From: Bifidobacterium aesculapii
GTDB lineage: Bacteria > Actinomycetota > Actinomycetes > Actinomycetales > Bifidobacteriaceae
Assembly: GCF_001417815.1 (NCBI RefSeq)
Contig: NZ_BCFK01000068.1
Coordinates: 1 to 64,000, forward strand
Length of the DNA stretch: 64,000 nt
Direction of reading: 5' to 3'
This document shows positions 364-5,784 of the stretch, one piece after another. The translations under genes and the position numbers were made by a program. The notes beneath the pieces are model-generated. The model saw nothing but the letters and a program-made list of their open reading frames with translations. It had not been told where the DNA came from and did not search any database. Position 1 is the stretch's first letter, and the number at the start of each line of letters is the position of its first letter.

Positions 364-403
364 AAGAAGGAGTATATTCTAAATGTCTGTCCCCCCCCCC
401 TAG
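364..403 (+). promoter_or_regulatory. RBS, ATG and C10 tract: phase-variable start
   Basis: A strong Shine-Dalgarno AAGAAGGAG at 364-372 precedes ATG at 383 with good spacing. Two codons later comes an uninterrupted run of ten C (391-400). With ten C the ATG frame stops at TAG 401-403. With eleven or eight C it would read straight into the glycosidase. The stop overlaps GTG 403 (TAGTG), which itself has only the C run upstream and no ribosome site. This is the layout of a slipped-strand contingency locus, shown here in the out-of-frame state. A miscalled homopolymer length would look the same. Confidence 0.7.
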
Positions 404-2724
404 TGAAAATCAGTGCGTCGGCAGCTGCTATCGCATGTTGCTTCGCTTTTTCCCTGCCCGCACTTGACGGTTTGGCGTCTGCCGAGGAGACCGCAGGCGT
501 CAATCTTGTGGAAAACGGTGATTTCGAGAGCGGTACCACGGCATGGAAGCCGGGCACCGTATGGGATTCCAGCAAAGCGCAGATTGCCGCAGTGGGTGAT
601 GACGTACATGGCGGCAAAACCGCGTTGAAAGTATCTGGTCGCGCCTCCACCGACGCTGGCGTGGTTCAGTCTCTGAACGGCAAAGTGGCCAAAGGTGAAA
701 ACTACACGGGATCCATGTGGGTCAAATCCACTGAAGATGCCGTGTTCAACATCACCATCTGCTCTGGCAACGGCAGTGGCTGCGGGCAGATTGCGACCGC
801 AGCAGTGAAGTCCGGTGCGTGGTCGGAAGTCACAGGCTCCGCAGAACTGTCAGGCAACGGTGACTACGAGAGCCCGTACCTTGTGGTGGAGACCTCGTGG
901 AACAGTGGCAAAACCGGGGATTTCTTGGTGGATGACGTCATGCTGAACGGAAGCGCGTCGGAACCCATCGTTCGTCCTGAAGGAACCGCCAAAGCGGCCA
1001 AGCAGATTGGTGAATCGAATCCGATTATCGACTACTGGTATGGTGCCGACCCGTGGGCCATGGAGTATGACGGACGTGTGTACGTATACACCACCGGCGA
1101 CGCCACATCCGTCAATGCGGACGGATCGTTGACCTACGACTACGAGTATGACTCTAAAGGCAACATCAAAGACAACTCCTTCAGTTCGGTGAAGACCATC
1201 AACGTGCTGTCCACCGCCGACATGGTCAATTGGCGCAATGAAGGATACATCCGTGTAGCTGGAGAGCAGGGTGTGGCCAAGTGGGCCTCGCACTCGTGGG
1301 CTCCGGCAGTGACTCATAAGACCATCGATGGCAAAGAGAAGTTCTTCCTCTATTTCGCTAATGGAGGCAGCGGCATTGGTGTGCTAACTTCTGATTCTCC
1401 GGTGGGGCCGTGGCATGATGAGCGTGGCGAACTGCTTATCAAGGGTGGCACTCAGGCTGCGCAGGGTGTCGTGTGGCTGTTCGACCCGGCCGTGTTCACC
1501 GATGACGATGGCACTGGTTACCTCTATTATGGCGGCGGCGTGCCCGAGGGGCAGCGCGAGCATCCGAACACGGCTCGCGTCATCCAACTCGGCGACGATA
1601 TGATCAGCACTGTGGGCGACGCGAAGCCCATCGACGCACCCGCCATGTTCGAGGATTCCGGCATCGCCAAAATCGGCGACACCTACTACTACTCGTACTG
1701 CACGAACTTCAGTCACGACAAGGTAATCGACGGCCATACCATCGGCTATGGCAACATCGCCTACATGACCTCCAAGAACCCGATGGGCCCCTTCACCTAC
1801 CAGGGGGAGATCATGCAGAACCCGAGCAAGTACTTCGACGTAGGCGGCAACAACCATCATGCGATGGTCCGGCTCGGCGACTCTTGGTACATGGTCTACC
1901 ACGCGCAGACCGTGGCCAAGGAGCTGACGCAGGGTGGCAACCTCGATAAGGCACGCGGCTACCGCAACACGCATGTCGACCCGATTACCATCAACGAGGA
2001 CGGCAGTATCGCCGACATCCCGATGACGAAGAAGGGGCTCGATCAGGTCCGGAAGCTTGACGCATACCCGGACGGCGGCATCAGCGCCTCCACCATTGCA
2101 TGGGACTCCGGTATTCAGGACGCCTACGACAAGTCATCCGGCGTGCGCGTGGTCGACCTGACTGCGGACAATTCGGAAGGGCAGAAGCTCAGCAACATCA
2201 ACGACGGCGAATGGACGTCGCTGTCACAGGTCGATTTCGGTGAGCAGGGCGCGAAGTCCATCACGGTCCATGCGGCAGGCAAGGCTGGCGGCCGGATCGA
2301 AGTGAGGCTTGACGGCACCGACACCGAACCCGTGGCCGTAGTGGATATCCCCGCTGGCGACGGCGGCGTCTACAACGACTACACGGCGGAACTGTCCGGT
2401 GTGAACGGCGTACACAACGTGTTCTTCACCTTCCGTGGAGCACAGGACGACGATTCCAATCCGGAACTGTTTGACATCACCGGCTACGTGTTCACCGCGA
2501 ATGCCACCAATCCAGATCCGGATCCGGATCCGACTCCCGGTGACGGCGATCAGGGCAAGGATGATGCCGGTAAGGACGATGGCAAGGACGATCAGGATGG
2601 GGATCAGCAGCCGTCCCATCGTCTGCCGTCCACTGGCACCGCCGTGCTGGGCCTGTCCGGCGCCGTGGTGGCGTTGGCCGTTGCCGGTGTCGGTCTGACG
2701 GTTTGGCGCAAACGCCGCGCATGA
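403..2724 (+). CDS. LPXTG-anchored GH43 glycosidase (arabinofuranosidase/xylosidase type)
   Basis: Secreted wall-bound enzyme, probably removing arabinose or xylose from plant glycans outside the cell. In order: signal peptide ending ASA (about residue 27), a CBM4/9-like beta-sandwich (about 34-183), a five-bladed GH43 domain (about 205-545), a CBM6-like domain (about 600-697), an Asp/Pro/Lys linker, LPSTG at 741-745, a hydrophobic helix and an RKRRA tail. Likely GH43 catalytic residues are Asp216 (in ADPW), Asp361 (in FDPAVF) and Glu417 (in FEDSG). The open frame can begin at GTG 403, but the ribosome site fits ATG 383, out of frame by one C of a C10 run, so expression may switch. Exact substrate is not decidable from sequence. 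A second GH43 gene follows 210 bp downstream. Confidence 0.85.
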   Translation: MKISASAAAIACCFAFSLPALDGLASAEETAGVNLVENGDFESGTTAWKPGTVWDSSKAQIAAVGDDVHGGKTALKVSGRASTDAGVVQSLNGKVAKGENYTGSMWVKSTEDAVFNITICSGNGSGCGQIATAAVKSGAWSEVTGSAELSGNGDYESPYLVVETSWNSGKTGDFLVDDVMLNGSASEPIVRPEGTAKAAKQIGESNPIIDYWYGADPWAMEYDGRVYVYTTGDATSVNADGSLTYDYEYDSKGNIKDNSFSSVKTINVLSTADMVNWRNEGYIRVAGEQGVAKWASHSWAPAVTHKTIDGKEKFFLYFANGGSGIGVLTSDSPVGPWHDERGELLIKGGTQAAQGVVWLFDPAVFTDDDGTGYLYYGGGVPEGQREHPNTARVIQLGDDMISTVGDAKPIDAPAMFEDSGIAKIGDTYYYSYCTNFSHDKVIDGHTIGYGNIAYMTSKNPMGPFTYQGEIMQNPSKYFDVGGNNHHAMVRLGDSWYMVYHAQTVAKELTQGGNLDKARGYRNTHVDPITINEDGSIADIPMTKKGLDQVRKLDAYPDGGISASTIAWDSGIQDAYDKSSGVRVVDLTADNSEGQKLSNINDGEWTSLSQVDFGEQGAKSITVHAAGKAGGRIEVRLDGTDTEPVAVVDIPAGDGGVYNDYTAELSGVNGVHNVFFTFRGAQDDDSNPELFDITGYVFTANATNPDPDPDPTPGDGDQGKDDAGKDDGKDDQDGDQQPSHRLPSTGTAVLGLSGAVVALAVAGVGLTVWRKRRA
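2535..2711 (+). repeat. wall-anchor module shared with 5583-5771
   Basis: The linker, LPSTG and membrane-anchor code of this gene is base-for-base the same as 5583-5771 in the next glycosidase, except that the downstream copy has one extra 12-bp unit (GGCAAGGACGAT). The catalytic parts are not alike, so the anchors were recently duplicated or homogenised. Confidence 0.9.
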
Positions 2725-2934: not shown

Positions 2935-5784
2935 ATGAACACATCCATTGTGCTGCGCCGGCTTGCCGGCGTGGTCGCCAGCGCTGTGACGTTAGGTTTG
3001 GGCGCCACGGTATGCATCCCCGCATCGGCTGCGGACATCCCATACACGTCCGATCGAAGCTACACGACGACGGACAACGCGGACGGCACGTACTCGATTC
3101 CGCTGCTCAACTCCGACGTGCCTGACATCAGCGTGATGCGTCTGCCCAAAGACGATCCCAAGAACCAGGAAGGGCGCGACGTGTACTACATGGTGAGCAC
3201 CACCATGGAGCTCAGTCCCGGAGCCCCAATCATGAAATCCTACGATCTGGTCAACTGGCGAATCGTCACCTACGTCTATGACCGTATCTCCATGAGCGAC
3301 GCCTCCTCGCTGCGCAATGGCGCCAGCTCGTACGGAGAAGGGGAGTGGGCTCCGTCCATCCGATACCATAACGGCCGGTTCTACGTGCTGTTCAACACCA
3401 ATAACTTGGGCGGTGCGTTCATCTACTTCACCGATGACATCGAACATGGAACTTGGACCAAAGTCACGTTGGGACGCGGATTCCACGATCCGTCCTTGTA
3501 CTTCGACGACAATGACGATCCTTGGATCATCTCCGGAGTCAACGAATACAAGCTCGACAAAAGCGATCTGAAGACCGTGGTGGAGACTCATGAGAACATC
3601 ATCTCCGCAGAACAGTTCAAGGACGCGCTGGGTGAAGTGCCCCACGGATTCGAAGGCTCGCAGGTCTTCAAAATCGGCGACTACTACTACACGCCGACCA
3701 TCTACTGGGGCAAGGACGGACGCACGGTCATGCTGCTGCGGACCACCGACCTGCTGGACGGCACAAAATACGAGGCGCGTAAGTACGCGCTCAGCGGATT
3801 CGCCCAAGGCAGTCTGGTGGAAGTGGCAAACCCGGACGGCAAAGGAACACACTGGGAGGGATTCTTCTTCCGCGACACCTATCCGACCGGCCGCATCCCC
3901 GGTCTGATTCCCGCCGTATGGGGAGACGACGGATGGCCCGTCTTCGGCGACGATAACCATGTGACGGCGGGCGACGTCTACGACAAGCCGATTGCCCTGC
4001 CGGACGAACTGGAGCGTCTTGTGCGCTTGCAGGGCGTGGTGAATTCCGACGACTTCGACAACGACGCCCCGCATCAAAGCTATCAGGACCAAGACTGGTG
4101 GACGCTGGAAGAAGCTCCGGAAGCGGGTAGCAGCGAAGTGATCGTCAACGGCGAAGTCAACGGACAATCCGGCTGGGAAGGACGTGAACAGGCCAAGATC
4201 TCCCTCGGCTACACAACCAACCACAGCGCGCCGAACTCGCTGCAGGTGACCGACCGAACCGCGACAGGTGCGGGCCCCTCCCAATCGGTGAAGGGCAAGG
4301 TCATCGCAGGCGGCACGTATCAGCTATCCGCGTGGGTGCTGTACAAGGAAGGCCCGGACAACAAGACGTTCAACTTCACCATCCGGGACAAGAACAAGGC
4401 CTACGTGATGGCATCGGCGAACGCGCGTAAGGGCGAATGGACGCAGATCAGCGGCACATACACGCTGCCCGAACAATTCGACGCGGACAGTGCGGAAGTG
4501 TTCTTCGAAACACCCTGGACGGCGACCCCTGATGCGACGAACGACCTGATGAACTTCTTCGTTGACGATATCTCGATGAAGGGAGACAGCACCAAGGAAT
4601 ACGCTGTTCCGGAAGAGTATAAGCCGAACGGCTCCAACCTCGACATGGTCTGGGAGTGGGCGCACAACCCGGACAATCGGTACTGGTCTCTGACGGACCG
4701 TGACGGATGGCTGAGGCTGACCAACGGCCACACGGTATCGAAGACCGCAAAATACATGAAGGGCACGCACGGCGACCTCACCTACTTCGAAACAGCCCGT
4801 AACATGCTTTCGCAACGCACCTTCGGAGGCAACATGTCCATCGAAACCAAGATGGACGTAAGCGGCATGAAGGACGGTGATACCGCGGGCATTGCCACCT
4901 ACACGCGAAGCTTCTCCTACGCGGCGGTGCGTCAGGAAAACGGCAAACGCACGTTGGGCGTGGTGAAACGCATCTACGATAACGGCAAGAAGGACGCCGA
5001 AGGCAACATCATCGACGACACCATCGACCGTGACAAGGTCGAGTCCTTCGTGGAAGGTACCACGGTGGAACTGGGAGATCACACCGAGGTGTGGCTCAAA
5101 AGCGACAACGTGCTCGACGAAAGCAGCGGCAAACTGACCATCCGATACCTCTACAGCCTCGACGGCAGGACCTGGAATGAGTTGGGAGGGCAGCAGGGAC
5201 CCTTCGGTTACGATTGGAGCCTTTCCCACTTCAAGGGATACCGCATCGGTCTGTTCAACTATGCCAAGGCCGTCACCGGCGGCTACGTGGACTTCGACTA
5301 CTACAGCCTGAGCGACGTGCTTAGCGCCGATGGGAAAGCCGTATCCACCGACCGGTTGCAAGCGGCAATCGCCGAGGCAAAATCACTGCGGCATGACGAA
5401 TATCCTGCGGAGGACTGGGCCGAACTGCAGACACTGCTGAAGAAGGCCGAGACCGCGCTCGTCTCCAACCCCTCCACGCAGAACGAAGTCGATGCGCCAC
5501 AGCGCGCGCTGTCCGTGCAGTTGGCCCAACTGGCGGTCGACCGTGAGAAAAGCACGAATCCGAGTCCGGACCCGACTCCGGATCCCGGTGACGGCGATCA
5601 GGGCAAGGATGATGCCGGTAAGGACGATGGCAAGGACGATGGCAAGGACGATCAGGATGGGGATCAGCAGCCGTCCCATCGTCTGCCGTCCACTGGCACC
5701 GCCGTGCTGGGCCTGTCCGGCGCCGTGGTGGCGTTGGCCGTTGCCGGTGTCGGTCTGACGGTTTGGCGCAAGCGTCACGCCTGA
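2935..5784 (+). CDS. LPXTG-anchored multidomain GH43 glycosidase with FIVAR domain
   Basis: Large secreted glycosidase. Signal peptide ends SAA (about residue 33). The N-terminal GH43 domain (about 35-370) has Asp64 (VPDISVMRL) as likely base, Asp185 (FHDPSLYF) as pKa modulator and Glu240 (GFEGSQ) as likely acid. A CBM4/9-like domain follows (about 400-548), then a concanavalin-like GH43 C2 domain (about 565-790; starts VWEWAHNPDN), a FIVAR-type helical module (about 803-866), and the charged linker with LPSTG, membrane helix and RKRHA tail. The GH43 plus C2 pairing is typical of arabinofuranosidases and xylosidases. Start ATG 2935 has AAGGGA upstream. Likely works with the upstream enzyme on arabinoxylan or arabinan side chains; that is inference. 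Confidence 0.88.
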   Translation: MNTSIVLRRLAGVVASAVTLGLGATVCIPASAADIPYTSDRSYTTTDNADGTYSIPLLNSDVPDISVMRLPKDDPKNQEGRDVYYMVSTTMELSPGAPIMKSYDLVNWRIVTYVYDRISMSDASSLRNGASSYGEGEWAPSIRYHNGRFYVLFNTNNLGGAFIYFTDDIEHGTWTKVTLGRGFHDPSLYFDDNDDPWIISGVNEYKLDKSDLKTVVETHENIISAEQFKDALGEVPHGFEGSQVFKIGDYYYTPTIYWGKDGRTVMLLRTTDLLDGTKYEARKYALSGFAQGSLVEVANPDGKGTHWEGFFFRDTYPTGRIPGLIPAVWGDDGWPVFGDDNHVTAGDVYDKPIALPDELERLVRLQGVVNSDDFDNDAPHQSYQDQDWWTLEEAPEAGSSEVIVNGEVNGQSGWEGREQAKISLGYTTNHSAPNSLQVTDRTATGAGPSQSVKGKVIAGGTYQLSAWVLYKEGPDNKTFNFTIRDKNKAYVMASANARKGEWTQISGTYTLPEQFDADSAEVFFETPWTATPDATNDLMNFFVDDISMKGDSTKEYAVPEEYKPNGSNLDMVWEWAHNPDNRYWSLTDRDGWLRLTNGHTVSKTAKYMKGTHGDLTYFETARNMLSQRTFGGNMSIETKMDVSGMKDGDTAGIATYTRSFSYAAVRQENGKRTLGVVKRIYDNGKKDAEGNIIDDTIDRDKVESFVEGTTVELGDHTEVWLKSDNVLDESSGKLTIRYLYSLDGRTWNELGGQQGPFGYDWSLSHFKGYRIGLFNYAKAVTGGYVDFDYYSLSDVLSADGKAVSTDRLQAAIAEAKSLRHDEYPAEDWAELQTLLKKAETALVSNPSTQNEVDAPQRALSVQLAQLAVDREKSTNPSPDPTPDPGDGDQGKDDAGKDDGKDDGKDDQDGDQQPSHRLPSTGTAVLGLSGAVVALAVAGVGLTVWRKRHA

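Follow-up and report, generated by a model that had tools for sequence, protein, structure and literature searches.

A cytosine tract behind the start codon of a predicted wall-anchored GH43 enzyme: a candidate slipped-strand switch in a bifidobacterium

When the best start codon of an otherwise intact gene for a surface enzyme leads through a run of ten cytosines straight into a stop codon, is the gene broken, misassembled or started elsewhere, or is it one state of a switch? The window considered here, by which we mean the whole stretch of 64,000 nucleotides that was analyzed, comprises bases 1 to 64000 of contig C68 in a 2.69-Mb draft assembly of 93 contigs, and the gene lies on its forward strand. 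We assign the genome to Bifidobacterium because the three nearest named orthologs belong to that genus and because tract positions in two genus mates agree with coordinates published for B. pseudocatenulatum DSM 20438 (G060) and, to within a few bases, B. dentium NCTC 11816 (G027). We favor, at a probability of roughly 0.7, the reading that this is a slipped-strand contingency locus caught in its OFF state, an assessment drawn from the architecture of one assembled allele and from comparison with other loci.

Reading frames around the tract and the enzyme behind it

The proposed slippage site, C10 at 391–400, is the only G/C run of more than six bases in the window. It is separated from the ATG at 383–385 by five bases (TCTGT, 386–390) and begins eight bases from the A of that codon; the first-pass annotation had located the run correctly and had given the spacing as six. 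As deposited, the leader frame at 383–403 reads ATG TCT GTC CCC CCC CCC TAG and would yield MSVPPP* as the OFF product, in agreement with the earlier statement that the frame closes at TAG after six codons. This stop (401–403) shares one base with a GTG at 403–405, and the resulting TAGTG (401–405) is a possible site of low reinitiation. By translation, the three frames behind the tract extend 0, 21, and 773 codons, the longest of them without an internal stop, and ATG383 is joined to it only when the tract changes by +1 (C11) or −2 (C8); C10 is OFF and so is C9, where the stop comes a few codons later. The earlier claim that C11 or C8 opens the full enzyme stands as far as the joining of frames goes, while the 773 residues it gave are the length of the form that starts at GTG403, the C11 product amounting to 7 + 773 = 780 residues. 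Two marks of contingency loci are present together: a G/C tract of about eight or more bases lies between the start and the body of the ORF, and its length decides between a truncated and a full product of an intact ORF. The leader mRNA fold is ordinary (z −0.90), and consensus promoter and terminator scans were uninformative.

The 773-codon ORF (403–2724, forward strand) carries, by Pfam and translation, a signal-peptide-like start, CBM_4_9 (residues 34–168), GH43 (206–535), CBM_6 (575–698), and a wall anchor. The GH43 assignment rests on PF04616 at 104.9 bits against a curated cut-off of 32.2, and the N-terminal stretch reaches 2.26 on a crude hydrophobicity index for which a threshold of 1.9 was used. 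An LPSTG sortase-type motif at 2623–2637 of the forward strand (found by translation, DNA coordinates derived by hand) precedes a hydrophobic stretch and a basic KRRA tail, which completes the three elements of an LPxTG-like anchor; from these features the protein is predicted to be a secreted, LPSTG-anchored GH43/CBM6 enzyme. The nearest solved structures, 3c7g (E 5.5e-132) and 3c7e (6e-132), cover residues 197–681 and are deposited as Endo-1,4-beta-xylanase; we take both to be arabinoxylan arabinofuranohydrolases, and the similarity to them suggests that arabinoxylan is probably the substrate. They share with the window enzyme the combination of GH43 and CBM6, whereas the N-terminal CBM_4_9, the wall anchor, and the C tract are additions of the latter.

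A second GH43 protein, with GH43_C2, CBM_4_9, and a similar LPSTG tail, is encoded immediately downstream (2935–5784, forward strand; Pfam, translation), and farther along the window homoserine O-succinyltransferase and ATP synthase subunits indicate ordinary chromosome. Upstream, at 11–119, stand three palindromic 25-mers of the form TGTGTGG...CCACAC spaced by 41–42 bp. The same pattern has 42 forward and 31 reverse matches genome-wide, in clusters, against 0 for a control pattern, and it is a dispersed repeat family.

Start codon, assembly, and expression without switching

The choice of start codon bears on every account of the locus. The ribosome binding site AGAAGGAGT (365–373, forward strand) forms an anti-SD duplex of −9.2 kcal/mol before ATG383, a value equalled at 5 of 300 random positions, and the same test returns 0 kcal/mol before GTG403, which bears out the earlier description of the ATG as the start with the good ribosome site. 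In addition, the orthologs in genome G043 and in three named species have approximately 14 residues more before the aligned signal-peptide core than the GTG403 start gives, so the GTG403 form would be without most of the signal-peptide n-region. If initiation were normally at GTG403, with leader and C run incidental, the product would begin with a short yet possible signal peptide (MKISASAAAIACC...), but the missing SD and the missing n-region make this very unlikely, and ATG383 is the favored start on these sequence features. Leaky constant expression, in which every C10 cell makes some enzyme through TAGTG reinitiation, −1 frameshifting on the C run, or transcriptional slippage, draws more support: the TAG and GTG overlap by one base, the shift needed would be −1 on CCC codons before the stop, and recoding at contingency loci has been reported for Neisseria. 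It would nevertheless explain neither why a hypermutable run is kept nor why tracts recur before signal peptides, and we regard it as improbable as an account of the locus, while as background expression it could coexist with switching. Least probable is a decaying gene, an accessory enzyme put out of frame by a run that arose by chance. The window gene is indeed sporadic: the search of the other 111 genomes in the genus set gave a single close ortholog, and orthologs are also present in the three named species. Against decay, the ORF contains no stop, the domains and anchor are intact, and the SD is strong.

Whether the run itself could be accidental or misread depends on the company it keeps. 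G/C runs in the window number 46 of five bases, 2 of six, 0 of seven to nine, and 1 of ten, and C10 is an outlier in this spectrum. Dinucleotide shuffles of the window did not reject a chance run, since 22 of 100 reached the observed two nine-base matches (the mean of the shuffles was 1.0); for the whole genome, about 0.17 such tracts would be expected in 30-nt leaders if 2,200 genes are assumed and the 7 runs away from contig ends are taken as input. We consider a chance run disfavored by the run spectrum and the position, though the shuffles leave chance open. Of the 19 runs of ten or more in the assembly, 12 are found no farther than 150 bp from the end of a contig, mostly amid G- or C-rich sequence resembling assembly junk. 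The C10 is at a distance of 391 bp from a contig end, and for that reason its exact length carries more doubt than it would in a finished genome. Proximity to the end of a contig, in a draft where most long runs are contig-end junk, counts against the switch; such junk is not favored as the origin of this tract, whose flanks are an ordered SD, leader, and ORF. If the assembly were instead off by one and the true tract fixed in frame, for example as C11, the gene would simply be on. The 93-contig draft and the nearby contig end lend themselves to such an error, and passages of Penno et al. (PMC9187656) describe both a B. breve pilus tract at which most cells differ from the annotated length and Illumina trouble at G-tracts. 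We nonetheless hold this to be unlikely given the clean and ordered flanks, and a C run of ten or eleven at this place would still be prone to slippage.

The slipped-strand reading remains the one we prefer, with a strong SD at ATG383 and an intact 773-codon ORF a single length change away in its favor. If translation starts at ATG383 only, ribosomes on a C10 message would halt after six codons and those on a C9 message a few codons later, whereas a slip to C11 or C8 during replication would put the signal peptide and all of the GH43 enzyme in frame with the ATG, and a fraction of the cells would then display a surface-anchored, probably arabinoxylan-trimming enzyme. From C10 one gain would turn the gene ON and a single loss would leave it OFF; because C9 is also OFF, ON switching from C10 should proceed mainly by additions. 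ON cells could for this reason be rare in culture, where at one G10 tract from the literature only approximately 0.1% of cells had gained a base, and this weighs against the reading.

Orthologs and similar tracts in the genus

If the switch were an old property of the enzyme, its orthologs should share it. The sole close relative in the genus search of the other 111 genomes is at 71% identity in G043, which we take to be B. longum JCM 1217. Its gene (L009) has a G10 at 3691–3700. That tract belongs to a separate leader ORF of 15 codons, with a TGA that adjoins the main ATG, and it sits inside a 12-bp hairpin immediately ahead of the ribosome site (fold z −3.67, a stability reached by 0 of 200 shuffles). 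Direct frame fusion at this G10 fails, as no tract length joins leader and main ORF, so any effect of the tract would have to arise in some other way; the leader is a possible candidate for length-dependent translation control of another type. The orthologs of B. primatium, B. pluvialisilvae, and B. saimiriisciurei, at 78–82% in the best segment, show a plain SD-ATG, and their gene starts are free of tracts; one of these three (L040) has a C10 1,133 bp upstream, in another context. The tract check covered the eight relatives listed except L042, L043, and L045. The first-pass annotation had proposed comparison with orthologs as a check, and its outcome does not favor the switch: with three orthologs tractless and the G043 tract unable to fuse frames, the switch is not conserved with the gene, and this counts against it. 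A same-species comparison was sought in plasmid and viral collections, with no match.

The layout, rather than the gene, recurs. We surveyed 124 listed runs of ten or more from 16 single-contig genomes together with selected loci of the window genome, a set of 131 distinct tracts in 130 loci, and a subset of these shows SD and ATG, a short basic leader, the tract, and then a signal-peptide core, in front of pilus-like proteins, other surface proteins, and a GH110-like enzyme. Searching 112 genomes for SD-ATG-N5-35-G10 gave 65 windows against 13 in the reversed control (48 distinct tracts in 23 genomes), and SD-ATG-N0-30-C10 gave 19 against 3 (13 distinct tracts in 12 genomes), where sums and distinct counts were made by hand, overlapping windows are non-independent, and a single genome (G015) contributes 14 of the 48 G tracts. 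From the 61 distinct tracts we kept the 45 whose downstream ORF reached 120 codons or ran off the end of the available sequence, and dropped the 16 with a shorter one. A signal-peptide-like stretch follows the tract in 29 of these 45 loci (27 G, 2 C); among background windows the count is 10 of 210. One of the two C loci is the window GH43 gene. The other encodes an acyltransferase, and there a membrane helix is the likelier reading of the stretch. Nine of the 45 are deposited in frame, 8 among the 39 G loci and 1 among the 6 C loci; of these nine, L238 has a stop in its leader.

A Pfam scan of 32 downstream proteins, in which one tract is represented twice (as L158 and L222), left 11 without a match. 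The matches were mainly adhesin-like (SpaA, PKD, LRR, VWA, bacterial Ig-like, and Listeria-Bacteroides repeats), with two solute-binding proteins, an acyltransferase, a DNA methylase, a sialic-acid-type esterase, a prophage-type GH25 lysin, and one GH110-like enzyme making up the others. Glycosidases are therefore a minority of the class.

Several of these loci are of interest in their own right. C10 lies a few codons past an SD-led ATG before an N6/N4 DNA methylase (L255) and an acyltransferase (L256), both out of frame as deposited; acyltransferases and DNA methylases are typical phase-variable kinds. In the window genome itself (G000, contig C50), a G9 at 1553–1561 of locus L092, in the coding frame and in frame as deposited, marks a candidate switch in a membrane acyltransferase-like protein whose NCBIfam match is weak and below cut-off. 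Contigs C23 and C27 of G015 (L223, L267–L271) carry 14 genes with near-identical leaders of SD, ATG, about 7 codons, and then G10 or G11, 12 of the 14 out of frame as deposited and most encoding small secreted proteins with Ig-like or Listeria-Bacteroides repeats; this array is a dense set of candidate switches and apparently unreported. Repeated MTDYPLR- or MSETFR/MGEAFR-G10 leaders stand before prophage-like proteins at L226, L232, L235, L276, and L277, one of which carries a GH25 lysin domain, and these are possibly switched phage genes.

Precedents in pili and glycosidases, and what a switch would mean

That G/C runs switch bifidobacterial pili, as the first-pass annotation stated, is shown for B. 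breve in passages of PMC9187656, where tract length decides fusion at the pilus loci bbr_0113 and bbr_1889 of strain UCC2003. The leader ORF of bbr_0113, as described there, is 24 nt long, SD-led, and ends in a 10–11-base G/C tract. Both pilus loci as described resemble ours in having an SD start, a short leader ORF, the tract, and a second ORF in another frame without an SD, and the window locus has the same short SD-led leader with no SD at the second ORF. They differ in that the B. breve tracts are G on the coding strand and serve pilus genes, whereas ours is C on the coding strand and serves a GH43 enzyme: where the pilus switches have a pilin as the first gene of a sortase cluster, Pfam finds GH43 and CBMs here. 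Length mixtures, moreover, are proven in those B. breve passages, while the window locus is known from one assembled allele. In culture the reported pilus G10 was approximately 93.4% G10, 6.5% G9, and 0.1% longer, and in mice additions and omissions each came to approximately 10–12% (same passages of PMC9187656). A C tract is described in passages of PMC3224659 for Propionibacterium acnes PPA2127, where it lies at the 5' end of an actinobacterial surface gene, as ours does, and differs in length among strains, one of them frameshifted; PPA2127, in contrast to the window gene, is an adhesin and not an enzyme.

Tracts also touch other glycosidases of the family. Locus L188 of G010, presumably a B. 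bifidum genome, encodes an extracellular GH110-like protein (Pfam GLAA-B beta-barrel and beta-helix matches) whose signal peptide contains a G10 that is in frame in the deposited sequence. Ten Gardnerella-like genomes of 1.5–1.8 Mb were searched for sialidases, and 7 of them gave 10 BNR_2 matches; seven of the ten loci stop short of the gene start, two are tractless at that point, and the last, L288 of G057, has a C12 between signal peptide and enzyme and is out of frame as deposited. We infer that L288 is NanH3, the Gardnerella sialidase in which slipped-strand mispairing was reportedly found by Kurukulasuriya et al. in 2021. NanH3 and the window enzyme are both extracellular glycosidases from one bacterial family, and slipped-strand mispairing is the mechanism in question for each, but NanH3 is a sialidase acting on host glycans rather than a GH43, and the L288 tract comes after the signal peptide, not right behind the ATG. 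Slippage in nanH3 is in print and is noted in the review PMC11868660, and passages of PMC11287997 report many variable homopolymers in Gardnerella genomes, with pullulanases among the associated genes. The novelty that the first-pass annotation implied for a switched glycan-foraging enzyme was hence overstated, and its proposal of a phase switch gains from the anatomy, the recurrence in the genus, and the B. breve precedent. For GH43 specifically, we found no report of slippage switching in the open-access literature, and the passages on bifidobacterial G-tracts concern pili. With its strong anatomy, the locus would represent a known kind of switch with a new target.

More tentative, and in our judgment somewhat short of even odds, is the proposition that slippage switches in the starts and signal peptides of surface genes are genus-wide and include polysaccharide-degrading enzymes among their targets, such as the GH43 enzyme here, the GH110-like enzyme of G010, and the G057 sialidase. 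Bifidobacterial genes with out-of-frame starts at G/C runs should not be called pseudogenes before length variation is considered. If the switch at this locus works, a commensal's surface enzyme for plant fiber would be set by random slippage and not by sugar sensing alone, so that annotation or a single culture may misjudge what a strain eats, and public-goods foraging could be put to the test inside a single clone. If the genus-wide reading is true, a clone would be divided between cells that make the enzyme and cells that live on the sugars it releases, and the foraging of shared polymers would be a stochastic division of labor selected by diet.
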